Below, piece by piece: positions 32,510 to 54,339 of a DNA stretch of 60,095 nucleotides. Where the stretch lies: positions 1-60,095 of the forward strand of contig JACSDG010000002.1 in the NCBI GenBank assembly GCA_015660855.1, given 5' to 3'. The notes under the pieces were generated by a model that did not search any database, was not told the DNA's origin, and was given only the letters and a program-made list of their open reading frames with translations. A program made the translations under genes and the position numbers. The DNA comes from Magnetococcales bacterium (GTDB lineage: Bacteria > Pseudomonadota > Magnetococcia > Magnetococcales > UBA8363). Position 1 is the first letter of the stretch. Each line of letters opens with the position of its first letter.

Positions 32510-34642
32510 TTAAAACCCGCTTTCACGCACCAAAACCTCGTGTACGGTCCTTGCGAGCCGGACAATGGGTCTTTCGGGTGGTGCTTCCAGGGTCATGACA
32601 CCGCGCATGACGCTTCGCACCGGAATATCCTGGTCCAAAACAAAATCGACCCGATACATGGCCCCCTCGACGACCAGTTTTCCGGCGCGGTCTTCACGTA
32701 CCGGCAACAGACCACCATACAAGGAGGCAAGGTAAAGCTCGTTCAAAGTGCGGGTGGTGGTCTGATCCTTGCGGAGCAGGCGACCGGGGAGCGGTGCCAC
32801 ATCGGCATTCTCCGGATAAAACACCCCCCTGGCCTCAGGAGCCACCCGATTGAATTGCCCTTCGGAGACATACCCTTTGACGATGGGACGATTGGCATCG
32901 ATCACCGTCAATATGGGTTCCTTGGCCGCCACCCAGTCACCAACGGCGACATCTTCGGCCAGATCCACCACCATGCCGGAAAACGGGGCAAACACACTTA
33001 ATTTTTCCATTTCGGTCTGGAGGGCATGGCGTTCCGCCAGGGCGGCGACCCATTCCTCTTCCATGGCCTGATCCTGTTTTTGCGGCTCGGAAGCTGACCC
33101 CGATTCGGAAAAATCCACCCCCTGGACCGCCAGCCGCAAGCGAGCCATGACAATGTTTTTTTCGACAGTGTCCAGACGATGTTGCAGGTCGGGGTCAAAA
33201 AATCGCAGCAGCAGATCCCCTTGAGCCACTTCGGTTCCCGACCTGACCTGGATTTGAACCACCTGGGCACTGGCCGGGGCATAAATGACCGTATGATTGT
33301 CGGACTGTAGCGTAGCAGGGGCCTCGGCGATGGAAAAATGCCAGGGAAGAACCAGCAACAGAATCGAGGCCACAAACAGCAAAAGGGTGACGACCAAGTT
33401 GCGATTCAGATGGAGTACACCACGAACTTTGTACCAAACCATGATTTCCCTCCCCAGGGGACGCAGGATAAACCATCCGACTTCAACCAGGAACAAAAAT
33501 ATCCCCAGCAGCTTGAAGAAGGCATGATACACAAGCAAAGCGATGCCAAAAAAAAGAAACAATCGATAGATCCAGATGCCAAAAGCAAGGGCAATCAGTA
33601 ATTTCTGCCTGGAAGGAGCCAGCTTTTCCGGAGGCAGAACCCCCAGACCAAACAACCATTCGCGCAGACGCCAGCGACCCAAGGCAAAGGCGCGATCTTG
33701 CAGATTGGGGATTTCCAGGGCATCACAGAGCAAAAAATAACCGTCAAAACGCATCATGGGATTCAGGTTGACGGCCAGGGTAATGATCCAGATGGCACTG
33801 GCCAGAAGAAAAGAGGCACTGCGCAACGGCCCATCGGGCAGAAAACTCCACGCCAGCGCAGCAATGATCGCCAGCATTAATTCCGCCGCCATGCCCGCCA
33901 TACCGACGACCATGCGTTGTCGCCGGGAGGACAGTTTCCAGACATCGCTGGTTTCGGTATAGAGCACCGGATACATCACCAAAAACGCCACCCCCATGGT
34001 GGGAACCCGGCAGCCAAACCGTTGGGCGGCATAGGCGTGTCCCAATTCATGGATGATCTTACTGGCAAACAAGGCCCCCGCATAAGCGATCACCCCGGTC
34101 CAACTGAAAAAATATTGAAAGGTGGTCACAAAGGCTTCCCATTGCCGGACGATCAATCCCAGGCTCAAAAAAGCGGTCATGGTGATGAGCAATAAAAATT
34201 CCCTGGAAAACATCCATTGGATGGCGGGTGCGGTCCGCCGCAAAAAAGAATCGGGTCGCCACAAAGGGATGCGCATGAACAGATAATTATGCAGCATCCA
34301 ACCGACCCAGTGGGGTTGACTGTGACGTTGTATTTCCAAAAAACGGGCACGATCCTCGGCAGTCATGGGGCGAAACAGGTGGCTCTGGGCCAGATGTTGC
34401 GTAAAAAGTTCCACATCCCTGGGAGTCATCCTCAAGGTAGTTTCCGCAGAGATGGCCTGGGCAATGGCCTCGGGGGTGTGCAAATCCCAACGGGAGAGCA
34501 TCTCAAATTCACGCCAGCCTATGCGGAAAAACCGATTGCTCGCCGGATCATGCAGGGTCCAGGTGGGCGAACCATCGGCAGCATGAGGACCGGGGTAGAG
34601 CGAGATTTCTTCACGCAAGGATGGAAGTTCAGAGGGGGGCAT
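32510..34642 (-). CDS. M50-type zinc metallopeptidase fused to a HlyD-like adaptor
   Basis: A 710-residue inner-membrane protein. Residues 1-95 look like a PqqD-like winged-helix domain. The M50/site-2-protease-like core follows, with HELGH at about 198-202 and NPMMRFDGY at about 294-302, set among several membrane helices. From about 415 one membrane helix leads into a periplasmic HlyD-type region with biotinyl-lipoyl halves (VVQIQVRSGTEVAQGDLLLR and FSGMVVDLAEDVAVGDWV) around a short coiled coil. Both zinc-site motifs are intact. It is the last gene of a three-gene operon, 2 bases after the GAF/HlyD gene. The layout suggests an export apparatus in which a membrane protease and adaptor work as one. 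The family occurs beside giant DUF4347-type proteins as I recall, but this was not checked. Confidence 0.85.
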   Translation of the reverse strand: MPPSELPSLREEISLYPGPHAADGSPTWTLHDPASNRFFRIGWREFEMLSRWDLHTPEAIAQAISAETTLRMTPRDVELFTQHLAQSHLFRPMTAEDRARFLEIQRHSQPHWVGWMLHNYLFMRIPLWRPDSFLRRTAPAIQWMFSREFLLLITMTAFLSLGLIVRQWEAFVTTFQYFFSWTGVIAYAGALFASKIIHELGHAYAAQRFGCRVPTMGVAFLVMYPVLYTETSDVWKLSSRRQRMVVGMAGMAAELMLAIIAALAWSFLPDGPLRSASFLLASAIWIITLAVNLNPMMRFDGYFLLCDALEIPNLQDRAFALGRWRLREWLFGLGVLPPEKLAPSRQKLLIALAFGIWIYRLFLFFGIALLVYHAFFKLLGIFLFLVEVGWFILRPLGREIMVWYKVRGVLHLNRNLVVTLLLFVASILLLVLPWHFSIAEAPATLQSDNHTVIYAPASAQVVQIQVRSGTEVAQGDLLLRFFDPDLQHRLDTVEKNIVMARLRLAVQGVDFSESGSASEPQKQDQAMEEEWVAALAERHALQTEMEKLSVFAPFSGMVVDLAEDVAVGDWVAAKEPILTVIDANRPIVKGYVSEGQFNRVAPEARGVFYPENADVAPLPGRLLRKDQTTTRTLNELYLASLYGGLLPVREDRAGKLVVEGAMYRVDFVLDQDIPVRSVMRGVMTLEAPPERPIVRLARTVHEVLVRESGF

Positions 34643-34644
34643 GA

Positions 34645-36012
34645 TTAAAAGGCGATCATTCGTCGAACCATGGCCAGAGGGCGGCGCAAAAGATAATAAA
34701 ACAGCGATACCTGTTGGCCATGGATTCTGGCCGACCCGCGCAAACCCAGTCTGGGTGGCGGAACGCCACGAGCAAAATCACCTTTGAGCCGATACGACAG
34801 CACCCCTTCGGTGGTCAGATCCGCCCGGTAGCTCAAATAACGCAGTCGGGCCGGAAAGACAAGGCCGGGATCTGCGGCGGGAAACAGTTCGATTTCAGCT
34901 CCGGGGGCCAAGGTGATGGCGTCGGCCACGGGAAGATTGATTTCCAGTTCCACCTGTTTGGGATCGGCCAGCATCATGATGCGTTCACCAATGGTCACGG
35001 GACGACCTATCCAATCGTTGGCATCGGTGAAGACAGCCACCCCATCGCGAACGGCATATAATCGAGTCCGCTCCAACTGCTGGCGAATGTAAACCAAGTC
35101 GGCACCGCGCTGCTCCATACGTCCTTTCAGGAGGGCGATTCTGGCGGTATCCCGGGTATTGTGCAGTGCGGTTTGTACCGCCTGACGATGTTCGGCCCGC
35201 ACCACATCGAGTTCGTTTTGGGTCACCGCCAGAAGGTTGTCCAATTTTTTGGAATCCAGGCGCAACAACAGTTGCCCCACTTTGACCGTTTCATTGGGTG
35301 TGACATAAAATTCGTCCACCACCCCATCGATGGCAGCGCGGACCACGACCGGGGCATGGGCGACCACCTCACCGGGAGCCAGAACCGACTGTCGCATAGG
35401 CACCAATGCCAGCCCGAGCAGCAAAATCACCACCAGGAGCTGTCGGGCGCGGGGCCATTTTTCGCGCAGGCGTCGCCATGGGCTGCGCCGGGCCAACAAC
35501 CCCCACCACACCGGGGCCATGGTGACGCCCAACTGCTCAAGGATGAGTTGCTCCGCCGGGGTCCAGGGTTCTTCGCGGGCCAAAAGAACCCCTCCCACCG
35601 GGGGAACCGTCGGGGGGGTCGCATTTCCGGGGAGGGCAACGGGAAGCCAAAGTCCATGTTGGGATAACCATTCGTGCCACGAACTCCCCAAATCGGGCGG
35701 CAGATCGGATAAGGTGATGGGGGTGGCGTTTTGGATGGCACGGCCCTCCAAATAGCGACAGACCGAGGTAAGCCATTGCACCAGGGGGACATCCCGATCC
35801 AGGATCGGCAATCCCGAAAGGGCATCGATACCTCCCGAACGGCCACCCCAACCCGAACGCCACAGGGCTGCCTGGCGATAGCTGACCAGATAAATCACCT
35901 CGTTGACCACCGAATAGTGAAACTCTTCGAGGGTGCTTGCGGTGCAGAACCTTTTTTGCAGATTGAGCAGGGCACCCAGGGTCGCATCCAGGGTATCGGT
36001 GGGGGCGTTCAT
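34645..36012 (-). CDS. HlyD-family adaptor with N-terminal GAF-like domain
   Basis: A 455-residue protein. Residues 1-170 are a cytoplasmic GAF-like sensor domain (LEEFHYSVVNEVIYLVSYRQ, then TPAEQLILEQLGVTMAPVW). One membrane span lies at 190-206, and the periplasmic HlyD/MFP part has lipoyl motifs (VVRAAIDGVVDEFYVTPNE, then LLRLDSKKLDNL) and a coiled coil. A cytoplasmic sensor on an adaptor is unusual and hints at regulated export. Overlaps the upstream HlyD gene by four bases (ATGA); nearly abuts the M50 gene. Confidence 0.85.
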   Translation of the reverse strand: MNAPTDTLDATLGALLNLQKRFCTASTLEEFHYSVVNEVIYLVSYRQAALWRSGWGGRSGGIDALSGLPILDRDVPLVQWLTSVCRYLEGRAIQNATPITLSDLPPDLGSSWHEWLSQHGLWLPVALPGNATPPTVPPVGGVLLAREEPWTPAEQLILEQLGVTMAPVWWGLLARRSPWRRLREKWPRARQLLVVILLLGLALVPMRQSVLAPGEVVAHAPVVVRAAIDGVVDEFYVTPNETVKVGQLLLRLDSKKLDNLLAVTQNELDVVRAEHRQAVQTALHNTRDTARIALLKGRMEQRGADLVYIRQQLERTRLYAVRDGVAVFTDANDWIGRPVTIGERIMMLADPKQVELEINLPVADAITLAPGAEIELFPAADPGLVFPARLRYLSYRADLTTEGVLSYRLKGDFARGVPPPRLGLRGSARIHGQQVSLFYYLLRRPLAMVRRMIAF

Positions 36013-36815
36013 GGTTTGGCAGCGGGTTGTTGGCGCATGCCCGAAAGGATGCGTCCGCTCATGCCGGGACTGAGTTCGGGAAATTGACCGATGATTTCCC
36101 CGGTGACCTTGACATGCTGACTGATGGCGTCAATCCTGGCACCAAAGGTAAGGATTCGGGCCGGATAACTTTTCCCGGTTTCGTCGATGCGAACCAGCAG
36201 ACGATCCTGCTTGTGCAAGCGTTGCAACCAGCGGGAAGGCATGTTGAAGGCCAATTCCAAAACACGGGGGTCCAAAATTTCTACCAGGGCCTCTCCGGAT
36301 TTGACATACTGGTGTTCTCGCACCGGCAAGGTCACCAATTGGCCCGCAAACGGGGCTGAAATCCGACAGCCTTCGATCTCGGTTTGGATGATGACCATCT
36401 CGGCCTGGGCTTTTTCCTCTTCGGCCTTGGCCGTAACGATCTCCATCTTGCTGGTGACGTTAAGCTGGTCGAGGCGACCGAGGACCTTAGCTTTGGCACT
36501 CTCCGCCGACAGCACCGCCTTGGCCCGGTTCAACTTGGCCAGTTGAATGCCGCAGTATAACTCCACCAGGAGATCGCCTTTAGCAAACCAATCCCCTTCG
36601 CGAAACGGCAATTTGACGATGCGCGCGGCGATTTCGGCGGAAAGGGTAGTAAACTGCCGCGCGATCAATTCCACCCGCACGTCGGCCTCCTCGGAGGCAG
36701 GAGAGGGAGAGGAGGTCACAGGCTCTTCGGTCGGTTTATCGGTGGAATCAGCGGCCCAGACCAGGCATGGAAGCGCGAGCAGCAAAAAAGTCCACAACCA
36801 CAAACCACAGCGCAT
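36009..36815 (-). CDS. HlyD/RND-type periplasmic adaptor
   Basis: A 268-residue periplasmic adaptor. It starts with a signal peptide (MRCGLWLWTFLLLALPCLVWA), then a lipoyl motif (ARIVKLPFREGDWFAKGDLL), coiled coil, second lipoyl motif (ISAPFAGQLVTLPVREHQYV) and a beta-barrel ending PELSPGMSGRI. The ATG at 36815 is used because the signal peptide begins there; an upstream in-frame region is not protein-like. First gene of the operon with the GAF/HlyD and M50/HlyD genes. Confidence 0.85.
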   Translation of the reverse strand: MRCGLWLWTFLLLALPCLVWAADSTDKPTEEPVTSSPSPASEEADVRVELIARQFTTLSAEIAARIVKLPFREGDWFAKGDLLVELYCGIQLAKLNRAKAVLSAESAKAKVLGRLDQLNVTSKMEIVTAKAEEEKAQAEMVIIQTEIEGCRISAPFAGQLVTLPVREHQYVKSGEALVEILDPRVLELAFNMPSRWLQRLHKQDRLLVRIDETGKSYPARILTFGARIDAISQHVKVTGEIIGQFPELSPGMSGRILSGMRQQPAAKP

Positions 36816-36944: not shown

Positions 36945-37301
36945 ATGCGCCGAGACGTTCGTCACAGATGCCACCCTGTTTGTTGGGGGGTGATGTTGGT
37001 TCTGGCCAACGTATGGTTTTCCGGCACCCCCGCCGCCTTTGGGGATGGTAGCAAAAATGCCCCGGAGAAGAAAGGATTCAACACCGGCCAAGCAATGGAA
37101 GAACCGCAAGTCTCCGAAGGGCTTTTGGGGGCCGATCTAGAGTCTGGCAGTTCGTTTGGTGGATTTGAAACGGGTAACGGAGAAATCGAACCCGATGACG
37201 GGCCGGAGTTGGGTGTTTGCCGTCCCAGACATGGCGTCACGTTTTGGGATGTTTGGGGCGAATGCCTTTCCGAAAGGCGCACACGCATCATGGGAGAATA
37301 A
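36945..37301 (+). CDS. possible small secreted acidic protein
   Basis: A 118-residue reading frame with a fair signal sequence (PVCWGVMLVLANVWFSGTPA, cleavage near AAFGD) and an acidic, glycine- and glutamate-rich mature part with two Cys. It sits in the 587-base region between the divergent adaptor operon and the channel gene. No clear ribosome site and no homology I recognise, so it could be a chance frame. Confidence 0.35.
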   Translation: MRRDVRHRCHPVCWGVMLVLANVWFSGTPAAFGDGSKNAPEKKGFNTGQAMEEPQVSEGLLGADLESGSSFGGFETGNGEIEPDDGPELGVCRPRHGVTFWDVWGECLSERRTRIMGE

Positions 37302-37402
37302 AACGAAGCCAACCCGCCTGCCGTTCCCGAATACTCAATGGTTTCCGGCTTGACCTGGACCAACTGGGGCCGACGCTTTGCCATCAAGGCTGTGGATTGT
37401 TT

Positions 37403-39529
37403 ATGAGCAAAACCAGATTTTTCTTGGTCATGGTGCTGGGGGTGACACTGTTGTCGGTCGCATTGTATTTGGCTTGGCGTATTCCCGAAAAAAAGGAAGT
37501 ACTGATGATTGGGCTGGGTGGGCCTATGAGCGGTACCTATAATAAGATTGGGCATTCCATGCGCAGGGGAGTGGAGTTGGCCATCAAGGACATCAACAAA
37601 AGCGATGCTCTCAAAAAGTATGAGTTCAGACTGGCCGTAGTTGACGACCACAGCGCAACCAATGCCAACGTTGGTGCCGAGAACGCCGCCCGCAAACTGG
37701 TCGCGATACCCAATCTTACGGCAGTTATTGGCCATTATTTCAGCGGCGCGTCCAGAGAGGCGGGTGACGTTTACCGGACGCACTCGATTCCCTTCGTCAC
37801 CCCATCGGCCACACTGCCATCGTTGACGGCCAACAATGAATGGGCGTTCGGCATCATGCCGGACGATTATTATCAATCCACATTCCTGGCCAACTATGTA
37901 CTCCACGGACTTAATCGGAAAACAATATCCATTATTCATTCCAAGGATTCCTATGGCACTTCCCTGACCGATTTTTTTGTCAAGGAACTCAAGATCAATA
38001 ATGTTACTCCGGTGGCCAATGTAGAAATAGACCAAAAGGATCTAAAACCGGAAACGTTGAAGACGTGGATGGATGATTTTTCCAAGTCGGATATCATTTT
38101 TTTGGCCATGAACTATGTCCATGCCGCAAAAATAATCCAGTATATGCGAAAAAACGGCATTAATACCGATTTTATCGGTCCGGAAAGCCTTGGCGGTACC
38201 CATTTTATTCAGGAGGCGGGGATCTATGCCGAAGGCGTCTACGCGGTGACCCCCTATCTGCCAAGTCTGTTCGGAGAGGAATCCAAACATTATCAGAGCA
38301 ACTTTATCAAAGAGTTTCAAATGGAACCCGACTGGGTCTCCACCTATTCCTACGAAGCGGTCCAACTGATTGCCTACGCCATTGGCAATGTGGGTCGGGA
38401 TACCACCAAAATACGCGGTTTCATGCGCAAGATGATTTCGCTTCAGGAGGCCATGCCCAGCATTGCCGGAGCACTTTATTTTAACCAGACCGGATCCTCG
38501 CGCCGCGACCTGTCGGTAGGGCAGGTCAAACAGGGACGCTATGGTCCGGCCCGGTTTCAGTTAACCCATGTCAAGTACCAGGAACTGGCCAAGGCCAAAA
38601 TAGAAAAGGAAAAAGAAAAAACAGAAATTTTTACCATGGATGGCCTTTACATGAAACGGGCCACCGTAGTCTACACAGGGATCTATGTCAGCGAAATCAA
38701 ATCATTCGACCCGGTCGAGGGCAGTTTTATTGCCGATTTCAATCTATGGTTCCGCTGGGATCCGGGGAAGAACAGTGCCCTTGACTTTGAAATGACCTAT
38801 GGAAAAGTATTGACCGCCAACATTATGGAAAAATATTTCGACGAAGGCACCAATAATAATTTCATTTCCTATGCCGTGTCCGCAAAAATGACGGATCAAT
38901 TTCCTTTGCAGGAATACCCATTCGATGTGCAAATCTTAAAAATACGTATCAAACCAAAAATGAAAACCAATGAAGACTTGATCCTTGTCACCGACATTGA
39001 CGATGACACCGTCTTGAAAAAATCGTTAGCTTTCGGACCCTGGAAAGATGTTGATCATTTTCAGTTTACCAGCTCCAAGGATTTTCTTTGGAGCTACCGT
39101 AATCCAAAGTATGATCTAAAGCTTTTCTCTCTGGAGCACTCTCAGTACAGTTATCATGTTATCCTAAAGAGGGATTCTACGGCCTACATCATCACATTTC
39201 TTCCGCTCATGGTCCTCGTGGGGACCGCCTACCTGATTTTTACCCTGGACTTCGATGTGTTTTCCTCCCGCTACTCCATGGGAACCATGTCCATATTGAG
39301 TGCCATGTCGTATCATAATGTCAACAAGCTGGGCGTAGGCTATCTCGTCCGTGGCGATCTGTTTTTTCTGTCGGCCTATTTTTTGTTCTTTTGCACCATT
39401 CTGGAGACTTCCGTAGCGAGTTATCTGAAAAAAATAAAAGAAGAGGAACTGGCCTACCGCTTGGACATCGTCTCCATGATACTCTATCCCATAGGAGTTG
39501 GAATTTCCTTGTGGATCATACTGAAATAA
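37403..39529 (+). CDS. periplasmic-binding domain fused to a pentameric ligand-gated ion channel
   Basis: A 708-residue membrane receptor. A signal anchor (about 7-25) is followed by a type I periplasmic binding domain of the LivJ/amino-acid receptor kind (about 33-400; IGLGGPMSGTYNKIG, VVDDHSATNANVGAENAARK, VIGHYFSGASREAG, SIIHSKDSYGTSL). Residues 420-590 are a Cys-loop-type extracellular beta sandwich (VVYTGIYVSEIKSFDPVEG, FIADFNLWFRWDP, FPLQEYPFDVQ) lacking the Cys pair, as in prokaryotic members. Four membrane helices follow (about 595-616, 624-642, 653-675, 688-706). It should gate ions in response to a small solute bound in the periplasm, a bacterial analogue of a ligand-binding ion channel. 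The ATG at 37403 directly precedes the signal anchor. It is followed 10 bases later by the chemoreceptor-like gene. Confidence 0.88.
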   Translation: MSKTRFFLVMVLGVTLLSVALYLAWRIPEKKEVLMIGLGGPMSGTYNKIGHSMRRGVELAIKDINKSDALKKYEFRLAVVDDHSATNANVGAENAARKLVAIPNLTAVIGHYFSGASREAGDVYRTHSIPFVTPSATLPSLTANNEWAFGIMPDDYYQSTFLANYVLHGLNRKTISIIHSKDSYGTSLTDFFVKELKINNVTPVANVEIDQKDLKPETLKTWMDDFSKSDIIFLAMNYVHAAKIIQYMRKNGINTDFIGPESLGGTHFIQEAGIYAEGVYAVTPYLPSLFGEESKHYQSNFIKEFQMEPDWVSTYSYEAVQLIAYAIGNVGRDTTKIRGFMRKMISLQEAMPSIAGALYFNQTGSSRRDLSVGQVKQGRYGPARFQLTHVKYQELAKAKIEKEKEKTEIFTMDGLYMKRATVVYTGIYVSEIKSFDPVEGSFIADFNLWFRWDPGKNSALDFEMTYGKVLTANIMEKYFDEGTNNNFISYAVSAKMTDQFPLQEYPFDVQILKIRIKPKMKTNEDLILVTDIDDDTVLKKSLAFGPWKDVDHFQFTSSKDFLWSYRNPKYDLKLFSLEHSQYSYHVILKRDSTAYIITFLPLMVLVGTAYLIFTLDFDVFSSRYSMGTMSILSAMSYHNVNKLGVGYLVRGDLFFLSAYFLFFCTILETSVASYLKKIKEEELAYRLDIVSMILYPIGVGISLWIILK

Positions 39530-39539
39530 TTGGGCAATC

Positions 39540-41264
39540 ATGTTAAAAAAACTGAAACTGTCAACCCATTTATTTATCATTCTCGCGTTTGTCGAGCTGG
39601 TCGCCCTGATCATGGGAAATTTGTCACTGCAAGTGACTTATCGCCTGGAACATCGCATCACCAGCCTCGACGGAATACATCTTCCCCTGATCTTTGCTGT
39701 ATCGGAAGCCTCTCGACTGCAAATGAACCAGGCCATGCGCATGAACGAAATATTGTTGTATGCACAAATCGATGACCGGCAAAATTTTGAAATCGCCAAT
39801 GATGGCTATATCCACGCCGGAAAACAGTTGAACGATGTGGTGATCGAGGCCAAACACATCATCCAAAAAAGCCTGGAGGTTCCAGACTCGGACAGCGAAA
39901 AAAATCAACTGGAAAAAGTCCGACTTGTCCTAGGTGACCTGGAAAAAATCCACGGTAGTTACGAGCATCTGTGTGGCAGCATCATTCGTAACCAGTTCAA
40001 GTTCAGATTTTTGACCAAGGCGGGGATTATCACCGGCAACGCCACCCAGACCATGGAGCAGGCGGAAAGGGAATATCAACAATTGCTGAGTAAAAACACT
40101 TCCGAACTGGATGATGAAACAAAACGATTGGAAGCCAAAATCAAGGAAGCTTTTTATGTCACCAAGGATATGGTCCGCGACCTTTCCGAACAAACCGCCA
40201 AAGAGCACAAGACAGCCTTTTCCCTTTTTATCCTCACCATGGTGATCATGACGGTGGGTGGACTATTTTTGGTTTTCACCATTTTTCATATCAACAACAC
40301 CCGATCCAGAGAGTTGTCCAACACCATTAAAAAATTGGCACTCCCTTTTCGGGAGAACGCCGCCTCTCTGCTCCGGATCATTCAGGATTTGGATCACGCC
40401 CTGTCCCAACTGTTCACCAATAACAGCAAACTGATGGATACCGTGGGTCAATCGGAACTTTCACTGACCAAACTGGAATCCTTAGCCGCCAGTTCTGCTC
40501 GATCCACGTCGGAAACCAAAGTGCTGGTCAACGAGAATGCCCGCAAACTCGATGATTCGGATCGATCCATTGCGGTATTCGCCGAGGTTTCATCAAGGTC
40601 CATGGCAGCGGGAAACCAGATTCAAAAGGGGGCGTTGAATCTCGGTCAGTTTGCACTGCAAATGCACCTCCTGGCCACCAGTGCCAGTGCCGAGGCTTCG
40701 CGGTCGGACGCTTCCCGTGGGTTCGTCGTCTTTACCGAAGAGCTTAAAAACATGGCACAAAAGGTAATGCTCTCCGCCGAGGAAATCGCCCAAACCGCTC
40801 AGGCCACAGTCCTGGATATCCAATCGGGACGGGACGGAGTCGAGGGGGCCAGAAGAACGTTTCAAGACATGGCCAATACCGCCGAACGCTTAAAAATCGA
40901 GGCCGAGAACATCATGGCGGCGTCGCACTATCAAACCGAACTGGTTGGCTCGGTCCAGAGGGATACGGTCCGGTTGCGTGAAGGGTTTTCTTTCTATAAC
41001 AAAACGCTGGAAGAAAGTGCCGAGGCCTGCCGCATGTTTCGCGTCCAAACCGATGCCATCTCTGATCTTCTTAAAAAAATGACGGTAGTGTTCGATGAAC
41101 GCCGTCAGCGGGTCGAACTCAAAATAGAGGGGCAAGACTCCCCCTTGTTGGTTCCCGACCTCATTCCCGAAACCAATATCCCGCGCAAACCTTTCGATGG
41201 GGGTGACCTCAAGGTCGAGGGGGGGATACTCAAAATGAACAATAACCCCCAGGAAAAAAACTGA
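39540..41264 (+). CDS. degenerate methyl-accepting chemotaxis-like protein
   Basis: A 574-residue protein with two membrane helices (about 10-27 and 226-248) around a helical periplasmic domain of about 200 residues, and a long cytoplasmic coiled coil. The hairpin tip that normally binds CheA and CheW is only dimly seen: GQFALQMHLLATSASAEASR then SRGFVVFTEELKNMA, where usual receptors have NLLALNAAIEAARAGE and GFAVVA. No HAMP domain is obvious. It may signal to a different partner. The 10-base gap to the channel gene suggests one transcript and a joint role. Confidence 0.8.
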   Translation: MLKKLKLSTHLFIILAFVELVALIMGNLSLQVTYRLEHRITSLDGIHLPLIFAVSEASRLQMNQAMRMNEILLYAQIDDRQNFEIANDGYIHAGKQLNDVVIEAKHIIQKSLEVPDSDSEKNQLEKVRLVLGDLEKIHGSYEHLCGSIIRNQFKFRFLTKAGIITGNATQTMEQAEREYQQLLSKNTSELDDETKRLEAKIKEAFYVTKDMVRDLSEQTAKEHKTAFSLFILTMVIMTVGGLFLVFTIFHINNTRSRELSNTIKKLALPFRENAASLLRIIQDLDHALSQLFTNNSKLMDTVGQSELSLTKLESLAASSARSTSETKVLVNENARKLDDSDRSIAVFAEVSSRSMAAGNQIQKGALNLGQFALQMHLLATSASAEASRSDASRGFVVFTEELKNMAQKVMLSAEEIAQTAQATVLDIQSGRDGVEGARRTFQDMANTAERLKIEAENIMAASHYQTELVGSVQRDTVRLREGFSFYNKTLEESAEACRMFRVQTDAISDLLKKMTVVFDERRQRVELKIEGQDSPLLVPDLIPETNIPRKPFDGGDLKVEGGILKMNNNPQEKN

Positions 41265-41287: not shown

Positions 41288-41410
41288 TCAGGCCAGATCG
41301 GCACCGGAATCCGCGAGGAATTCCTGGAAAATGGCTTCCATGCCTGAAGTGTCATGGGCAAAACGAAGATCAAGGCCAGTCAACGCATCACGAACGTGGT
41401 TGGTTTTCAA
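41288..41410 (-). CDS. possible 40-residue frame overlapping the giant gene's 3' end
   Basis: Starting at TTG 41410 a 40-residue peptide (KTNHVRDALTGLDLRF and AIFQEFLADSGADLA) runs past the giant gene stop in the +1 frame. It looks protein-like and could be a small gene, a lost C-terminus of the giant protein reached by a frameshift, or a remnant of another gene. No ribosome site is seen. Confidence 0.25.
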   Translation of the reverse strand: MKTNHVRDALTGLDLRFAHDTSGMEAIFQEFLADSGADLA

Positions 41411-44400
41411 TCATATTCTTAAGCATCAACAAGCTCGCCTCATGAAACCCAAGGCGGCCAAACTGACGCAGCTGCGCCGTCAGGGAGCGTTTGCCAAAGG
41501 CGTCCCTGGCGGGTTCATCAGACAAACTCGATCTTTTCCCCCCAAGTCTTTTGGCCACCCCCTCATCGGATTGATCGGCATCGACCTCCCCATCGACGTT
41601 GTTCCTGGTAACCGTTCCACCAGAGGAATCCCCTTCCATGGATTTTTCCCCGGCGGAAAGTTCCTCCTCTTCCGGTTGGGATGAAGAACCCGATGTCATG
41701 ACCTCTGGAGGAGTGCCAGAATCACCGAATCCCTGGACCGCCGCAGCACCTTCTTTTTGCGCCCCCGCATCACCAAATCCTTCAACAACCACAGGTGCCA
41801 CCGCCTCGGTATTGCCAGCCAACCCTTCGACGGCTCCCCTTTGTTCGGTCGCACCACTGTCCGAAAAACCTTGTACAGCAACAGGGGAAACCTTTTCATC
41901 GACGCCGCCGCTGAACCCCTTCACGACCACGGGTGCATTGCCCTGACTCATTGCGAAATTCGCATTTCCCATCGTGCCCGAATTGGCTCGATTGCTGTCA
42001 GGACCGGAATCGGCAAAATGTCTTTCACCGCCCGAACCGACACCACTTTCCGAACCCTGGCTTCTGACACCGCCACTCCCCCCTTCCGTTTTGGCCCCCG
42101 CATCTTTTGAAATGGTGGACTCAGAAGCGGTTGTGACAGAAACAGTGGCTGCAACTTCGGGAGTGGGAGCGACCGCAACGGGCACGGGCGCAACCGCAAC
42201 AGGGGCGGCGACAACCTCCGACCCGAAACTCAAAAGACTGTTTGTTACCGACTCAGCGGGAGAGGCACTGTCAAAGTTGGCAAGAGTACCGCTGCCCATT
42301 CCTGAGTTGTTGGCCACGGAATCGCTTCGGACTTCCCTGTTTCCGGCACGGCCATCATCACCGATCACCGGAGGTGGCACCGAGGGCAAAGAGGGTGGCA
42401 GGGCTTCGACGTGAATTTTAAAATCAACGACAGCACGAACACCGGCAATATCCGTGGCGGTCACCCGAATGGAATGGGTACCAGAAACGGTAGGGATGCT
42501 GCTGAAAGTCATGTTCCGGGCATCAAACCTCAACCATCCTGGGAGAGGGAAACCATCCGCAAAGCCCGCCGAAAGGGTCAAGGTATCCCCGGCATCCCGA
42601 TCGCTAAACAGTCCCTTTGGGAGTTCCAGGGTAAAGGGTTGGGCCTCCCTCGCGGCAAAATCCGGTATGACCCCATAGGCCACCGGGGCATCGTTGACAT
42701 TGGCGACTTGAAGTTGCAACGTTTCCTGCGCCGTGGCTCCACGTTCGTCGGCCACCGTGACCCGGAGTTCCAAAGCACCCACGTCGGCATTGCGGGGGGT
42801 GCCGCTCCAGGTCCGAGTGGCGGCATCGAAAGACAACCAACCCGGCAAAGGTGAACCATCGGCCTGGGTGGCGGTGTAGGTCAACGTCGTCCCCGCATCG
42901 ACATCGATGAAGGCGTCGGCGGGGATCTGCCAGGAAAAATAGGCATCCTGCGTCGCCACCTGACGGGCCAAAGGAATCGCCCCGACGGGGTCATCATGGG
43001 CACCGTTGATCGTGATGGTCAACACGGCAGTATCGGTCAGGGCACCGTCGGACAAAGTATAGTTGAAAGCCTCGGTCAAACTTTGGCCCGCCCGCAACCC
43101 CTGAACCATGGCGTTGGCATCATCCACCACATAGGTATAACTGCCGTCGCCGTGGAGGGTAAGGGCACCGTAGGAGCCTGCCATCGTGCCACCAACACCC
43201 CCTGCCGTTCCCGTCCCTTCGACGGCCCCACGGCGAACGCCGGTGATGGTTTTGACGGTCCCCGCATCGACATCGGTGTCGTTGGCAAGGACGTTGCCCA
43301 TAGCGTTGCTGCCAGGCAGGATACCGACTTCGGTGGCACTGCCGGAATCGTCGATACCCACCGGGGTTTCATTGATATTGGTAACGGTAAAGGCGATCGC
43401 CTGGGAAGCGGTCAGATGACCCGCGCCGTTGTCCGTGGCGGTGACGATGACGATGACATCATAGACATTGTTACCACCCACATCGCCAAGGATTTCAAAG
43501 TTGGGGGCACCCCGAAAAGAAATCGCCCCCGTGCCAGCATTGATAGCAAACAATCCGGCATCGGCCCCGGAAAGGCTCCAGGAAAGGGTGTCATTTTCGG
43601 GATCGATACCGGTGGCGACAGAGACAATCCCAGAGGTGTTTTCAACGACCGCCACCTGGGTTGCCGAAGTCAGCGTCGGGGCATCGTTGACTCCGGTGAA
43701 GGTCAGGATCCTGGAAACGGTAGCTGTAAGAACGCCAGCCCCCTCCCTATCCGAATTGCCGTCGGTCAGAGTCAACGTCACCGTCCGATTCGCAAGGTTG
43801 GGATCGTTGCCATTGGTGTTTTGATAGGTGATGGATTGCAAGGCCAACTGGTAGGCCGATTTGGCAGCGGTACCACTCAAGGTCAAGGTGCCCGCATTCC
43901 AGGAACCGGTAATGCCATTTTGATTGGTAAAGGCCAACACATCCTCACCGGCGACATAATTTCCCGAAATGACAACCCTTGCCCCGGTCATATTGGTGTC
44001 ATCGACATCATTCAAGACCCACCCTGCGTCCAGGACAACAGCCCCATCGCCTTCGGTATAAGCCAATGGTAACAAAGTACCGATCACGGTCGGGGCATCG
44101 TTGACCCCGGTGATGACGATGGTTCGGGTCGCGGTGGCGGTGAGGGTACCAGCCCCCTCCCCGTCCGAATTGCCATCGGTCACGGTAAACGTCACCGTCC
44201 GGTTCAACACATTGGGATCGTTGACGTTGGTGTTTTTATAGGTTACCGATTGCAAGGCGGTCTGGTAGTCGGCTTTGGAAGCGGTGCCGCTCAAGGTCAA
44301 AGTCCCCGCGTTCCAGGTACCGGTGATGCCATTTTGATCGGTAAAGGCCAACACATCTTCACCGGCGACATAATTCCCGGAAATCACCACTACCGCCCCG

Positions 44401-47400
44401 GTGACGTTTTCATCATCGACATCGTTCAAGGTCAATCCCGCATCCACCGTAACAGCCCCCACACCCTCGGTGTAGGCGCGATGGGCCAGGGTGGTCGTCA
44501 CCGTCAAGGCATCGTTAACCCCGGTCACAGTCACGGTACGCGTCGCGGAGGCGGTGAGGGTACCAACCCCCTCTCCGTCCGAATTGCCATCGGTCACGGT
44601 AAACGTCACCGTCCGGTTGTTCACATTCGGATCATTAGTGTTGATGTTTTGATAAGTGATCGATTGCAAAGCAGCCTGGTAGGCCGCCTTGGAGGCGGTG
44701 CCGCTCAAAGTCAAAACACCCGCATTCCAGGTACCGGCGATGCCATTTTGATCCACAAAGGACAACACATCCTCACCCGCGACATAATTTCCGGTGATCG
44801 CCACCACCGCCCCGGTAATGTTCACATCATCGACATCACTCAAGGTCAATCCAGCATCCACAAGGGTGGCCCCAGCCCCTTCGGTGTAAGGGCGTGCCGC
44901 AACAGTGGCGGTCACAACCGGGGCCGCATTAATCCCGGTCATGGTCATGGTGCGGGTGGCGGTGGCGGTCAGGGTACCAGCCCCCTCCCCGTCCGAATTG
45001 CCATCGGTCACAGTAAACGTCACCGTCCGAATCAACACACTGGGATCCATGACATTGGTATTTCGATAGGTAATGGATTGCAAAGCCGTTTGATAGTCGG
45101 CTTTTGAGGCAACGCCGGTCAAGGTCAGAATCCCGGCATTCCAAGACCCGGTAATGCCATTCTGATCGGTAAAGGCCAACACATCTTCACCCGCGACATA
45201 ATTCCCGGAAATCACCACAGCCGCCCCGGTAAGGTTCCCGTCATCGACATCACCCAAGGTCAACCCTGCATCCACAAGGATGGCCCCAGCCCCTTCGGTG
45301 TAGTAGCGTGGTGCCAAGGTGACCACCACGGTGGGGGCATCGTTGACTGCGGTGACGATCACGGTACGGGTCACAGAAGCGGTCAGCACCGCAGCCCCTT
45401 CCCCATCGGAATTGCCGTCGGTCAAAGTAAACGTCACCGTCCGATTGGAAACATTCGGGTCGAAAGTATTGGTGTTTTGATAGGTAATGGATTGCAAAGC
45501 GGTTTGATAGTCGGCTTTGGCAGCGGTACCGCTCAAGGTCAGGGTTCCGGCATTCCAGGATCCGGTAATGCCATTTTGATCGGTAAAAGCCAGCACATCT
45601 TCGCCAGCGACATAATTCCCGGAAATCACCACCACCGCCCCAGTAATGGTGGTGTCATCCACATCCGCCAGGGTCAACCCCGCATCCAAAACAACGGCCC
45701 CATCCCCTTCCGTGTAGGAACGCGCCGCAACGGTTGCGGTCATGGTGGGGGCATCGTTGACCGGGGTGATGGTGATGGTGCGGGTTGCGCTACCGGTCAG
45801 GGCGGCGGCCACTTCCCCGTCGGATTGACCGTCCGTCACGGTGAACGTCACCGTCCGATTCGCCGGATTCGGATCATTGGTGTTGGTGTTGCGATAGGTA
45901 ATGGATTGCAAAGCCGTTTGATAGTCGGCCTTGGAAGCGGTGCCGGTCAAGGTCAGGGTTCCGGCGTTCCAGGAGCCGGTAATGCCATTTTGATCGGTAA
46001 AGGCCAACACATCTTCACCGGCTACATAATTTCCGGAGATCACCACCACCGCCCCAGCAATGTTGGCGTCATCCACATCCGCCAAAATCAATCCCGCATC
46101 CACCGTAATGGCCCCATCCCCTTCGGTATAGGAACGTGGCGCAACGGTAGCAATCGCGGTGGGGGCATCGTTGACCGGGGTGATGATGATGGTGCGGGTC
46201 GCGCTACCGGTCAGGGCTGCGGCCACTTCCCCGTCGGATTGACCATCCGTCACGGTAAACGTCACCGTCCGGTTCGCCGGGTTCGGATCATCGGTATTGG
46301 TGTTTTGATAGGTGATGGATTGCAAAGCGGTGAGATAATCGACTTTGGAAGCGGTGCCGGTCAAGGTCAAGGTGCCCGCATTCCAAGACCCGGTAATTCC
46401 ATTCTGATCGACAAAGGCCAACACATCCTCACCAGCCACATAATTTCCAGTAATCGCCACCACCGCCCCCGTCAGGTTGGTGTCATCCACATCGGCCAGG
46501 GTCAACCCGGCATCCACCACGATGGCCCCGTCCCCTTCGGTATAGGCGCAGTTCGCAATGGTGGCGGTCACGGTGGGGGCATCGTTGACTGCGGTGACGG
46601 TCACGGTGCGGGTGGCACTGCCGGTCAGGGCAGCGGCGACTTGCCCGTTGGATCGACCGTCGGCTACGGTAAACGTCACCGTCCGGTTGTTCACGCTGGG
46701 ATCATCGGTATTGGTGTTGCGATAGGTAACGGATTGCAAAGCTGTTTGATAATCGGCTTTGGAGGCGGTACCGGTCAGGGTCAATATCCCGGCATTCCAG
46801 AATCCGGTGATTCCATTCTGGTCCGTAAAAGCCAAAATATCCTCACTGGCGACATAATTTCCGGTAATCGCCACCACCGCCCCGGTCAGGTTGCCATCAT
46901 CCACATCCGCCAAGGTCAATCCAGAATCCACCGCAATAGCCCCATCCCCTTCGGTATAGGAACGTGAGGCAACGGTAGCGGTCACAGTGGGGGCATCGTT
47001 GACCGGGGTAATAGTGATGGTACGGGTGTCACTGGCGGTGAGGACCGCACCACCCAAACCGGCGGTGTTGGCATCGGTCACGGTGAAAGTGACCGTCCGG
47101 CTCAACACACTGGGATCAGAAGTATTGGTGTTCTGGTAGGTGATGGAGCGCAGGGCGGCCTCATAATTGGCTTTGCTGTCCGTTCCGCTCAAGGTCAGGG
47201 TGCCTGCGTTCCACACCCCGGTGATATTGTTTTGATTGACAAAGGCCAATATATCTTCGGCCACGTAGTTTCCGGTGATCTGCACGACCGCCCCGGTCAA
47301 ATCGACATCGTCCACGTCGGCCAAGGTCAAACCGGAAGCCAGGACCACCGCCCCCCCACCCTCGGTAAAAGAAAGGGCGGCATTGTCGGCATCAATGGTG

Positions 47401-50400
47401 GGGGCATCGTTGACCGCCGAAATGGAGGTGCCCATGGTTTTCGTGACCGCTGCAATGGCCGTCGTGCCACCGTTGGCGGAGGTATCCACCGTCACCCGCG
47501 CCTGACCCGCGTTGGTGGTGGAAAAACCAGCGGCATAGGCATTGTCCAAACCCCGGACGGTGAGTAGCGGTGGAGTGCCATAATAATCCGCCACAGGGAT
47601 GAAACGAACCTTGCTGGCGACAGACAGAGCCAACGCAGTGGCGTCATCCCCAACATTGCCCACGGCATACCAGTTGGTTGCATCGGAAGAATATTGCCAA
47701 ACCCCCTCCGTCCCGGCATTGGCCGTATTGCCGACAATGGCCACCCCGCCAAAGGAAGAACCGGCATCGACATCCGTAAACAAACCGGAAAAAAGGTTGG
47801 TGATGGTTTCCCCCGAGGGCAACGCGGTGTCTTCGGCGACAGAGGCCAGGGTGGCATGACCCGTCAAAACCGGGGCGTCGTTGACGGCGGTGATGGATGT
47901 GGCAAGGGTTCTGGTAACGGCGGAGATGGACGTAGTCCCACCAGGAGTGGTGGTATTGACCAAACCCCGGACCTCCCCGACACTGGTGGTGGAATAGGCA
48001 GCGAAGGTTTGATCCAAAGCCCGCACCGTCAGGGAAGGCGGAGAACCGTTGAAGTCGGCAGCCGGCACAAACCGAACCCTGCTGGCGGCGGAAATAGCCA
48101 ATGCCGTAGCACCATCCGTCACGACACCGATGTTTGCCCAGTTGATTCCATCGGAGGCGTATTGCCAGACCCCCTCGGTTGTAGCGTTGGCGGTATTGCC
48201 GACAATGGCGATACCCCCGAAAGAAGAACCGGCGTCTATATCGGAAAACAAACCGCCGAACAAGGCTGTGACCGTATTGCCCACAGGAGCCGCAGTATCT
48301 TCGCTAACCGCCGCCAAGGTTGCATCGCCACTCAGGGTTGGGGCATCGTTGACGGCAGCGACCCAGGTAGAGATATAAGTCAAACCAGGACCTATGGCCG
48401 TGCTTCCACCCCTGGTGGTGGTATCGATAGTCACCCGGGATTCCGCGCCATTGGTGGAAGAAAATCCTCCGGCATACGTGTTATCCAAAGGACGAATCTG
48501 CATGGGGGAAGGCGATCCCTCATAATTGACCACGGGAACGAATCGCAGCATGGTGGCGGAAGACAGAACCAAAGAGTTGGCAGAACTTACCGCCCCTCCC
48601 ACGTCACACCAAGTGCCACCCGCCGTCAGATATTGCCAACTCCCCTGGGTGCCGGCATTGGCTATGTTGGTGACGATGGCAATCCCCGATAACGAGGCCC
48701 CGGCATCGACATCCGAGAAGAGAGATCCCGCCATATTGGCGACAGAATTGCCCGCCGGGGCAACAGTGTCCTCACTGATCGAGGTCAACCATGTCACGTT
48801 GATGAAACTTGGGGCATTGTTGCCGGCAGAGATGGAAGCCCCCAGAGTATTCATCCCCGAGCTAATAGCGGTAGTGCCACCATTGACACTGGCGTCCAGC
48901 AATATCCGCGTCTGGCCGGAGTTGGTTGTGGAATAACCCCCGACATGACTGTTATCCACCGCCCGCACGGTCAATGCGGTAGGAATGCCCGTGAACGTGG
49001 TAACTGGGGTAAAGCGGACCGAACTTGATTGACTGATGAACAGAGCCGAAGCATCGGTCACCGCCCCGACAGAATACCAGTTGATCCCGTCCGAGGAATA
49101 CTGCCAAGTCCCTTCGGTGACCGAATTGGCTGTATTGCCGATAATGGCCAAACCACCCAGAGAACTACCTGAATCGACATCGACAAACAAACCTCCAAAC
49201 AGGGCGTTAACGGTAGCCCCACCTGGCCTGGATTCGCCGCCGACCGATGCCAGAGTGGCATCTGCGGTAAGGCTCGGGGCGTCGGAAACCGCAGTCACGG
49301 TGGTGGATATAGCCCTGAACCCGCTGGAGACAGGATAGGATCCCCCCCGGTTGGTCGTATCCACCGTCACCCGGTTTTGACCGGCCTGGGTAGTGGAAAA
49401 GCTGCCGCTGTAGGCGTTGTCCAGGGCACGGACAAACAGAGAAGAAGGGGTTCCGGCGTAATTGGCCACGGGGACAAATCGCAACGAACTGCCGGCCCCG
49501 ATGGCCAAGGCGGTGGCCCCCTCAGCGACGGCCCCCACGGCAAACCAGTTGCTGCCATCCGAAGAATATTGCCAAACGCCCTGGGTAGCCGCATTGGCGG
49601 CATTGAACATGATGGCCACACCGGAAAGAGTGGATCCCGCGTCGGGATCCGAAAACATGCCCGCAAAGAGTACGGCCACGGTAGCACCCGGTGGCGCAAC
49701 GGTGTCTTCGAGTATGGAAGCAAGGACGGCATTGCCCGTCAAACTTGGAGCGTCGTTGACAGCGTTGACGGTGACGCCGATGGTGTCGATGCCCGTAGCA
49801 AAGGCCGTTGCGCCACCCGGGCTGGAAGTGTTCAGTGTGACGCGGGTGCCGGTCGAGTAGGCACCGGTATAGCTGTCGTCCATTCCCCGCACGCTCAACG
49901 CCGGCGGGGGACCATTGTAGTTGGTGACCGAAGAAAAACGAACCAGGCTTGCGGCAGAAATCACCAACGCGTTGGCATTGTCCCCCACGTTACCCACATC
50001 ATACCAGTTGGCACCACCATCCGGGGAATATTGCCAACTCCCCTGGGTTACCGCATTGGCGGTATTGCCCACAATGGCAACCCCACCCAAAAAAGCACCG
50101 GAATCCACATCGGAAAACTTGGAACCAAACAGGGAAGTCATGGTGGCGGTCGTCGCCGCCGTGTCTTCATCGAAGGCCGTCAGGGTGGCACTGCCCAGCA
50201 AGGTTGGGGCATTATTGACCGGATTGATGAAAGTCCCCAAAGTATCGGTCCCAGAGGCGATGGCCGTGGTACCGCCGTTGGTAGAGGTATCCACGTTCGC
50301 CCGTGACTCGCCGGCATGGGTGGTGGAATAGCCCCCGGCATAGGTGTTGTCCAATCCGCGCACCGTCAACGGAGGGGGCGTACCGTTATAGAGGGCCACC

Positions 50401-53400
50401 GGGACAAACCGGACAGAAGTGGCCGCAGACAAAGCCAGGGCTGTGGAATCATCGGCCACGTTACCGATACTCACCCAGTTGGTTCCATTCGATGCGTATT
50501 GCCACACCCCTTCGGTGACAGAATTCGCCGTATTGCCCACAATCGCCACCCCCCCCAGGGAAGAACCCGCATCCATATCCGAAAACAAATTGGTGAAAGC
50601 ACTGTTGAAAAGGGTCGCAATGGTTTCGCCGCCAGGGGCTGCCACCCCTTCGTTGATGGAAGCCAGGGTGGCGTTTCCGGTAAGGACAGGGGCGTCGTTA
50701 ACCGCCGTGATGGAGGTCGTGATGGAATTGGTAGCCGCCGCAACAGCCGTAGCCCCGCCGTTGATGGTGGTATCCACCGTCACCCGGGTCGCCAACGGAG
50801 TAGAAGAAAATCCACCGGCATAAGTGTCGTCCAACCCACGAACCGTCAACGCCGACGGGACACCATTGTAGTTGGCCACGGGGACGAACCGAACCAAGCT
50901 TGATGCCGAAACGGCCAGGGCAGTGGCATTGTCGCCCACATTGCCCACATCGGCCCAAGTCGTTCCACCGTTTGAAGAATATTGCCACACCCCCTGGGTC
51001 ACGGCATTGGCGGTGTTACCGACAACAGCCACCCCCCCCAGAGAAGCCCCGGCATCGGGATCGGTAACTTGACCCAAAAACAGATTGGCAATGGTTTCCC
51101 CCACTGGAGCCGTGGTGTCCTCATTCACGGCGGCCAACGCAGGGTTAACGTTCAGGCTGGGGGCATCATTGACGCTGGTGACATCGATGGTCATGGTTCT
51201 GGGAGTGGAATCAAGATCCACACCACCATTGGCGGTGCCACCATCATCCTCCACCTGGAAGGTAAAAGAAGCATAGCCGGCTCCGTTGGCGTTGACAGGC
51301 GGGGTAAAAACCAACTTGTTGGCAGCAATATCGGCCACAGTAACGTACTGCCCCACCCCGACAGCAGCACCATTGTTCGTCAACGTGCCCTGACCGGGCA
51401 AGGTGGTGATCAAAACCCGATTGAAACTGTTGGTCGGGTCGTCGCTGGCGTCGGAAAAGCCAAAATCGGCAGCAGCAAAAGTATGGGACGCATCCTCGGC
51501 GATGGTCACCGTTTTGTTGGTTCCGGAAGGGGCATCGTTAACCGCAGTAATAGTGATGGTCGAGGTCGCGCCACTGCCCGACTGGTCCCCATCCGCAACT
51601 TTCCAGGTCACGGTCCGACTGGCCGAAGTCGCAGTCGGAGCATTGCTGCTGCTGGCAAAGGTGACACTGCGCAATGCCGTTTGATAGTTAGCCAACGTCG
51701 CAGTCCCGGCCAACGTGAGAACACCCGTGGCAGGCACATAGCTCACCAAGGAAATGCCATTCTGGTCCGAGAACGCCAACACATCCCCCGCAGTCAAACC
51801 GGAAGTGATGGTCACCGTCGCCCCGGTGATCTGGGTATCATCCACATCACTGACGGTAACGGTGCCGTCAATGACCGTTGCCACCCCCCCCTCCGTATAG
51901 GCCAATGTGGCCCCGGCCGTAACAGTGGACAACTGATCCTCAAAGGCACCAATATCAATCAAACCATTGGAATTACGGACAAAACCAGTGCCACGCTGGT
52001 CAAGGGCAGACTGACGAACATCAAACACCGCCAGCTCCGCCGCCGTCCACTTGTCTTTGGCACTGCTCAACGCATCCAATGCCATGGTGCTGGTCGTGCC
52101 ACCATAATTTTGCAGGGAACCCAAACCTGGATCACCGGTGATATTGGAAGTGGTGGAAGTGACATTGGCCCAGATTGTGTCCTCGATCAGGCTATAATTG
52201 GCCGTAAACACACCAGAAACATCGACCCCCGTACCGGAAGTAACCGAATTGTCCGCGAGGATGCAATTGGCGATATTCAACCGGGTCGCCACGCCCCCCG
52301 AAGAAATACCCCCGCCATCATCTACCGCCGTATTACCCGCAATGGTACTGTTTGTAATGGTCACATAGCCCGAACCGCCAACACGAATGCCACCACCGGA
52401 AGTCCCGGAACTATTATTATAAATAGTGCTGTTATCGACCCATGCCCTGCTGTCCCCACTGGAGACCAAGACACCACCACCTACAGTGACAGCAGAGTTA
52501 TTGGTAATGGCACTGTCATAAACGTACAATACTGCCCCCCCTCCGCTGGACAAAATACCACCGCCCGAACCCGTCGTTGCGCTATTGTGATCAATGGTAG
52601 TCCGATTCAAAGTGACCGAAGCCGTGGAATTTGCTATGGCACCACCGGATAAAGCAGAACTGTTTGTAATCGTGCAGTCGTCCAACACCAACTTTCCCCC
52701 GACTCCCGCCCCGACACCTATCCATATAGCCCCGCCCGTCCCGGCCAAAGGATCAAAATTATTGATATTCAAACCCTGTAGAGTCACCGTTTTCGCCGCC
52801 GACGGCAGAGACACAGTAAGGAAACGATAATTATTACCTCCACCGTCGATAGTCATATCGGCAACGGAGCCACCGTCGCCAAGGTCACCATTGATGGTCA
52901 AATCGTTGGTGTCCACGATGGAGTTAAGTGCGGAGGTCAAAGTCACCGTCCTACCAGCACCGATGGCGTTGACATCGAAGACAATGGTATCGGCTCCGCT
53001 TCCCGCCGTGGAACCATCGATTGAAGCATCGGTTCTGGCCGCCTTGATGGCCTCTCGCAATGACACCTTCCCATCCCCATCGCCATTCTCGGTGGCGGTA
53101 TCGGTCAAACTGGTGACGCTGATGGTAGCCAAGGCACCCTGATAGTCTTTTTGCGCGGCGGCATCAACGACCACGCCACTTTCCAGAGTTCCCACCGTCC
53201 GCTCCAAAATCCAATCCCCCCCCTTGTTGACCGCACCGGTTATATTTTCGGACGCCGCCACATCCGCCCCGGTGATCGCAGCCACCCGATCAACAAACGC
53301 CGCCCCTTTTTCCCCTGCCCCCACATCACAGCCGTAGAAGAGAATGTCCCCATCCGCACTCAAAGCTTTGCCCCAACCCTGCAAAGCTTCCTGATGGTTT

Positions 53401-53900: not shown

Positions 53901-54339
53901 GGCCCGCCCTCCCCCATCAACAACTCAGATATCCCCCTGCCCTCCAGTTTAATCCTCGCACAAAACGCCAAACAAATAAATAAAATTGAACCCGATTCTG
54001 CCCTTCGAGGAGAAAAAATAAAAATCCCGAAACCGCACCCCCAGTGAAACAACGGAAAGTAAGACATTATGCCATTCAGATGCCATGGGTTGGTTTGGTC
54101 AATGCTATTTCCAAACCTATTTTAATGTGAGGTATGGATAGGTTGGTTCAACTGAGTTATTCTAATCTTGGGCACGGGTTTCGAAAAAGCATTTTCCTCT
54201 ATTTCCAATCCGGCTGAGCATTGGTATCAGAATCGCCACGGTGCCAGCGGAATTCCGGTGGGGGGATGGGGCCAGTCCGTACCTACCGTTGAACTCAGTC
54301 TTTTTTGTGTCACTCCAATGCGGAAATGGAGCAGGTGCG
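53901..54339. promoter_or_regulatory. divergent intergenic region with a candidate promoter for the helicase gene
   Basis: TTGGTC (54096-54101) and TATTTT (54119-54124) are 17 bases apart and face the helicase gene. The rest of this 439-base gap contains A/T-rich stretches likely to hold the giant gene's promoter on the minus strand, but no better match was found. No convincing gene is seen in it. Confidence 0.3.

Follow-up and report, generated by a model that had tools for sequence, protein, structure and literature searches.

A conserved operon of three HlyD-type adaptors, one fused to an M50 peptidase, as a probable export apparatus for giant surface proteins

Introduction

Type I exporters are normally driven by an ATP-binding cassette (ABC) motor. 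In the type I systems for giant adhesins (LapA-LapBCE, BapA and SiiE), the genes of a HlyD-type adaptor and a TolC-like channel lie beside that of a giant repeat adhesin, and this client lacks a Sec signal and carries a conserved C-terminal tail. Here we analysed a 60,095-nucleotide stretch of a Magnetococcales genome (contig JACSDG010000002.1; hereafter the window), in which three adjacent genes encode HlyD-type adaptors. This trio belongs to an operon that has the same neighbouring genes as the giant-adhesin systems, and its clients likewise appear to lack a Sec signal and have a conserved C-terminal tail. It differs in having no ABC exporter, in having three adaptors, one fused to an M50 peptidase (M50/HlyD) and one to a GAF-like domain (GAF/HlyD), and in an extra N-terminal client motif, LExRxxFDGA. 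The operon would work like a type I secretion system for giant adhesins: a HlyD adaptor and a TolC-family channel are present, yet the dedicated ABC exporter that defines the family, LapB in the operon of the LapA type, is absent.

Three further groups are related in part. The M50 proteases of ribosomally synthesized and post-translationally modified peptide (RiPP) pathways have a homologous M50 domain (152 bits to the daptide HExxH model NF041824 and 46 bits to the YydH/LiaK model NF058609, below the cut-offs of 300 and 225) and probably share leader recognition, but the operon protease is fused to HlyD and its clients are giant proteins, not peptides. Proteins of the LEPR-XLL and DUF4347 (PF14252) types resemble the clients, which have a LEPR-type motif near the N-terminus and, in many cases, DUF4347 after it; however, DUF4347 also occurs without the operon, whereas LExRxxFD goes with it. 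Lastly, the RND, MacAB and EmrAB tripartite pumps have adaptors of like fold (MacA, MexA, EmrA), but the operon has no RND, MFS or MacB-like pump, and no pump family recurs beside it in 106 loci.

Results

The trio and the conserved operon

The initial annotation, made from the sequence of the window, proposed a three-gene module of HlyD, GAF/HlyD and M50/HlyD at 32510-36815. Open reading frames (ORFs) and Pfam matches bear this out:

32510-34642, - strand: M50/HlyD gene, 710 aa (ORF and Pfam)
34645-36012, - strand: GAF-like/HlyD gene, 455 aa (ORF and Pfam)
36009-36815, - strand: HlyD1 gene, 268 aa, with its ATG at 36815 (ORF and Pfam)

M50/HlyD and GAF/HlyD are separated by 2 nt, and GAF/HlyD and HlyD1 overlap by 4 nt; the trio is a translationally coupled operon.

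From 84,980 species genomes, one scan yielded at least 581 relatives; the 80 best were retrieved with their flanks. Over the more than 100 loci retrieved, the operon consists of a giant protein, a TolC-like outer-membrane channel (OMF), HlyD, GAF/HlyD and M50/HlyD, and profiles built for this analysis found the same order in nearly all loci that extend far enough. Adjacent same-strand pairs numbered 63 for OMF-HlyD1, 90 for HlyD1-GAF/HlyD and 103 for GAF/HlyD-M50/HlyD, with a median gap of -3 nt. In most loci the gene directly upstream of the channel is that of the giant; E. coli, Kosakonia and Azospirillum plasmids are among these. The operon ranges over Alpha-, Beta- and Gammaproteobacteria, Magnetococcia, Desulfobacterota-type bins, Nitrospira and plasmids of E. 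coli. On an E. coli IncF plasmid it comprises a 4459-aa Ig-like protein, TolC and three adaptors, and further annotated plasmid copies occur in Kosakonia, Azospirillum and M. gryphiswaldense (pMSR-1). Of 5426 complete E. coli genomes, 24 have a match, mostly on plasmids; every match is at least 99% identical, and 22 span 80% or more of the query. The operon was present in about a quarter of a 199-genome sample of the phylum, in which the window's class, Magnetococcia, is over-represented, and in 25 of the 169 genomes outside that class. It is common, carried by E. coli plasmids, apparently undescribed so far and annotated only as generic HlyD and TolC proteins; full-text searches of an open-access collection of papers found no description, which is not proof of absence.

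The window's own genome holds six M50/HlyD genes (contigs C189, which is the window, C42, C102, C220, C224 and C174), and the five paralogues are 35-42% identical to the window protease. C42 and C102 each carry, on a single strand and in this order, the C-terminus of a giant, a TolC-like lipoprotein channel, HlyD, GAF/HlyD and M50/HlyD. C181 has the channel after a DUF4347 giant, and C174 has a DUF4347 giant after the protease. With paralogues on five other contigs and the same operon across phyla, the module is far beyond chance. The contig ends of C86 and C42 stop in the same giant-gene repeat (DRQTLADGSALPVWLSFDAG), so the assembler has probably broken a single locus, with giant, channel and trio, into these two contigs.

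Two observations concern the surroundings of the operon and its margins. Small 'tail fiber' (phage-tail-collar-like) proteins adjoin it in 5 of 106 loci (e.g. L104 3009-4868 and L105 20134-22241), and a diverged module (L133, G182:C1:393000-412500) has a DUF4347 giant with a LEPRLLFSA-type motif, a weak HlyD1, a GAF/HlyD and an M50/HlyD with HELGH intact.

Client proteins

The window contains one giant gene, about 5 kb from the trio:

41388-53900, - strand: giant client, 4170 aa, with DUF4347, cadherin-like, Ig-like and VCBS repeats and a client motif at each end
53766-53792, - strand: N-terminal client motif LEPRMMFDG, residues 37-45 (sequence motif)
53130-53624, - strand: DUF4347 domain, residues 93-257 (Pfam)
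41469-41495, - strand: C-terminal client motif GKRSLTAQL at residues 4136-4144, with 26 residues after it (tail profile, 21.8 bits)

This LEPRMMFDG/DUF4347 protein had been suggested as a plausible client. Co-occurrence and the motif agree with that suggestion; DUF4347 as an essential feature of a client does not hold. Co-occurrence was measured in the 199-genome sample without Magnetococcia (n = 169), where two very weak DUF4347 matches (G119, G165) were not counted and at most five candidates per genome were scored, so that copy numbers are capped at five. The protease was present in 25 genomes, DUF4347 in 31 and both in 21 (Fisher odds 70, p 1.3e-15), which means DUF4347 in 21 of 25 genomes with the protease compared with 10 of 144 without it; the lack of co-occurrence that would have told against the initial annotation was not seen. 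By genus, 14 were shared, of 17 and 22 respectively (Fisher p 1.4e-9). As a rule the two genes are no more than 25 kb apart, and often they share one operon; the distance was 0.4-23 kb in the 19 pairs listed. Within Magnetococcia the copy numbers of the two were correlated (rho 0.87).

The N-terminal motif, LExRxxFD[GA]A, stands roughly 10-75 residues from the client start and is a better predictor of the operon link than is DUF4347. Among DUF4347 proteins, LExRxxFD was present in all 30 beside the operon and in three more in the window's genome. It was missing from all 11 whose loci do not have the strict protease; these start instead with Sec-like signals, LEPRxLLSA-type variants or DUF4347 itself. 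The motif is also kept in clients without DUF4347 (L101, L108 and L124). A defining role of DUF4347 was rejected both on these three clients and on the motif-free DUF4347 proteins that have no operon. At the DNA level, a degenerate form of LExRxxFD gave six matches in the window's genome, five of them at its five DUF4347 giants, compared with two for a reversed-pattern control.

A second motif lies 20-40 residues from the client C-terminus and reads about GKP[GAS][FL][ST]xQLxxxG, the exact consensus being approximate because a hand-made rule was used to align the tails on it. A score of at least 7 bits was reached by 46 of 62 held-out client tails in five-fold cross-validation. Of 1412 other ORF tails, 12 reached it, and all 12 belong to giants or client-like ORFs beside the operon not previously counted as clients. 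The tail of the window giant, outside the training set, scored second best of the 1412. Both motifs thus track the operon. None of 33 clients has a strong hydrophobic N-terminal segment (KD19 of at least 1.6), which makes Sec export unlikely, and the client on the E. coli plasmid matches an NCBIfam BapA/Bap/LapF adhesin model.

At one locus (L139, G100:C1:3362000-3381500), a DUF4347 protein without LExRxxFD precedes a candidate ABC exporter of 795 aa, called by regular expression only, and an adaptor; DUF4347 proteins may therefore also use classical type I secretion.

The M50/HlyD protein

M50/HlyD matches HlyD_3 (1e-11) and Peptidase_M50 (1.7e-8) in Pfam. Its structural model is confident (mean pLDDT 90.8) and shows, in order, three strands and three helices (residues 14-86), a polytopic helical domain and the adaptor:

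34373-34561, - strand: PqqD-like, that is RRE-like, domain, residues 28-90 (hhalign, sister family, model)
34037-34051, - strand: HELGH zinc-binding and catalytic motif, residues 198-202 (H198, E199 and H202 invariant in 59 sequences)
33740-33769, - strand: NLNPMMRFDG motif, residues 292-301 (N292, R298, F299, D300 and G301 invariant in 59 sequences)
32573-33346, - strand: HlyD adaptor part, about residues 433-690 (Pfam; MacA, EmrA and HlyD structures)

With HExxH and NPxxxxDG in a polytopic membrane domain, the protein has the hallmarks of an M50, or site-2, protease, and both motifs are intact, as had been read from the sequence. The zinc site, HExxH with N..R[FW]DG, is intact in 116 of 116 M50/HlyD copies examined. 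RFDGY was among the seed peptides of the scan, which makes the invariance of D300 and G301 partly a selection effect; HExxH was not among them. D300 is likely to be the third zinc ligand, and proteolytic activity is predicted from the intact catalytic motifs.

The N-terminal part aligned with the PqqD alignment in hhalign (E 1.3e-5, probability 81%). M50/HlyD itself has no direct Pfam PqqD match, while the proteins of a sister M50/HlyD family in Magnetococcia, 690-750 aa long, do match PqqD (PF05402) directly. A diverged second M50/HlyD family of Magnetococcia (L173-L177, L170, L179) scored about 220-370 bits against the trio profiles and has a recognisable Pfam PqqD domain.

The other two adaptors

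GAF/HlyD and HlyD1 match HlyD_3 at 8.8e-11 and 4.3e-14. GAF/HlyD consists of an N-terminal cytoplasmic GAF-like domain, one transmembrane helix and a periplasmic HlyD adaptor:

35473-36012, - strand: GAF-like domain, about residues 1-180 of GAF/HlyD (orthologue matches and model secondary structure)

The GAF-like call of the initial annotation is upheld, not by the window copy, which is below the Pfam threshold, but by 11 of 42 orthologues that match PF01590 (best 9.2e-5) and by the GAF-like topology of the model (mean pLDDT 94). HlyD1 is a soluble periplasmic adaptor of the RND/HlyD type (TIGR01730, 91.5 bits) with the Sec signal peptide MRCGLWLWTFLLLALPCLVWA. Among the matches listed, MacA, MexA and EmrA come nearest in structure to the adaptor parts of M50/HlyD and GAF/HlyD. 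With the whole models, Foldseek gave only adaptors among the matches listed, which bears on the adaptor parts and not on the PqqD, M50 or GAF parts; these were assigned by profile methods.

The outer-membrane channel

The TolC gene of the window had been put forward as the outer channel and placed at 123-1508. The gene is present, but its span differs:

123-1658, - strand: TolC-family channel of the general type I TolC kind (TIGR01844), not of the operon's own OMF family

It was rejected as the cognate channel, having no match to the OMF profile of the operon. The operon's own channels form a different OMF family, whose genes lie beside that of the client in most loci, including those on C42, C102 and C181.

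Absence of a dedicated motor

No type I exporter ABC (PF00664) was found on the window contig, and no ORF in the window was flagged with a Walker A and a signature motif, in agreement with the earlier observation that no ABC ATPase is visible. Clustering of 758 neighbouring ORFs from the 106 loci gave no recurrent sixth gene, whether ABC, RND or another energizer, and on this ground a hidden sixth gene was rejected as the supplier of energy. The largest neighbour cluster, found at 11 loci, has ordinary ABC ATPase subunits among its members, and their distance from the operon varies. ABC-like ORFs occur near the operon in 10 of the 106 loci, again at varying distance, and in none inside it, so that the dedicated ABC transporter whose constant presence would have told against the earlier proposal was not found.

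The HlyB model (TIGR01846) was also searched in 27 trio-bearing genomes. In about eight of these (G050, G064, G095, G108, G124, G184, G186 and G199) the matches begin only past the N-terminal peptidase-like domain; their length is that of MsbA- or PrtD-type proteins, and there is no full-length HlyB-type exporter. One trio genome that is 95% complete (G113) has no TIGR01846 match at 1e-80.

Discussion

We consider it probable that the trio forms the inner-membrane and periplasmic portion of an export apparatus that resembles type I secretion and is dedicated to very large surface proteins. The client would be unfolded in the cytoplasm, without a Sec signal, and its LExRxxFDGA leader, possibly also its GKPxFxxQL tail, would be recognised at the inner membrane. 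The reader of the leader would most likely be the cytoplasmic PqqD-like domain of M50/HlyD, perhaps together with the GAF domain, and the M50 site would then remove or trim the leader. RiPP pathways use PqqD-like domains to bind leader peptides, and relatives of M50 (daptide, LiaK) mature peptides of this kind, so leader recognition and removal would be a natural role for M50/HlyD. The three successive genes for different adaptors suggest a mixed, six-membered periplasmic ring, in which all three chains would dock as one composite on the trimeric channel, and the client would leave through this channel as a surface adhesin. Energy may come from the proton motive force, from folding of the client outside or from a housekeeping motor acting in trans. 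The bolder form of this proposal, in which the PqqD-like/M50/HlyD protein replaces the ABC exporter and giant adhesins cross both membranes driven by proton motive force or outside folding, is tentative and rather doubtful. If true, it would add a way of energising and controlling the secretion of large proteins. The pair of motifs, LExRxxFDGA at the head and GKPxFxxQL at the tail, provides a sequence rule by which clients may be predicted in any genome.

Several points weigh against export by the trio as proposed. At the window copy two + strand genes lie between the trio and the giant, so that the two are neither one operon nor co-transcribed there, although they form one operon elsewhere, and the cognate channel has no gene beside them. 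On C224, M50/HlyD (L015 12214-14415, - strand) is solitary, with zinc motifs intact but with the other adaptors, channel and giant not nearby. A few clients diverge at one end, such as the C66 giant at its tail, and an ELWxxDGT protein of pMSR-1 has the C-terminal tail without the N-terminal motif in its annotated ORF. The PqqD assignment, a profile match, is of moderate confidence, and secretion and cleavage of the clients are both inferred. Without an ATPase no driving force is evident, and some ABC exporters, which may help in trans, are present in most trio genomes.

This last point leads to ordinary type I secretion with the ABC encoded elsewhere, in which a housekeeping ABC of the HlyB, LapB or PrtD kind would recruit the trio and the channel as client-specific adaptors and the M50 site would be an accessory leader peptidase, comparable to the C39 domains of peptidase-containing ABC exporters. 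The clients do resemble type I substrates in their lack of a Sec signal, C-terminal signal-like tail, giant repeats and BapA/Bap/LapF match, the window's genome has several ABC/HlyD loci, and the motif-free DUF4347 protein at L139 adjoins a candidate ABC and adaptor. However, an ABC is neither inside nor recurrently beside the operon, the genomes without a full-length HlyB-type exporter and G113 point the other way, and plasmids carry the five-gene unit with no ABC gene nearby; we regard this explanation as unlikely. Somewhat less likely again is a machine for retention and release or for processing, in which the giant would enter the periplasm otherwise, the trio and channel would thread, anchor and cut it, and the GAF domain would sense a cytoplasmic signal. 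The union of a protease and a cytoplasmic sensor domain in one complex, the three adaptors and the adhesin type of the clients would suit it, and control of LapA by LapD and LapG is a functional parallel, but the M50 site is in the membrane and not in the periplasm, and another inner-membrane route would still be needed because the clients have no recognisable Sec signal. RiPP-like processing and efflux of a small peptide, or of another molecule, by the trio, with the giant only a frequent neighbour, is very improbable: the M50 part does resemble the daptide and LiaK/YydH proteases and PqqD-like domains are known as a family to bind RiPP leaders, but RiPP enzymes are absent from the recurrent neighbours, the giant genes are the constant partner and both terminal motifs follow the operon.

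Other genes in the window

The two genes between the trio and the giant are on the + strand. The one at 37217-39529 encodes Peripla_BP_6 (1.4e-34) fused to a part like a pentameric ligand-gated ion channel (NF033918, 61 bits); the other, a chemoreceptor-like gene at 39540-41264 (MCPsignal, 6e-8), starts 10 nt after it. Near the TolC gene, an nSTAND_NTPase5 protein (1.3e-20) is encoded at 2879-4936 on the - strand, flanked on both sides by genes without a Pfam match. At 54241-57852 on the + strand lies a SNF2-type helicase gene with a C-terminal NOV_C, a relative of DISARM DrmD (384 bits against a cut-off of 610) and a possible defence gene.

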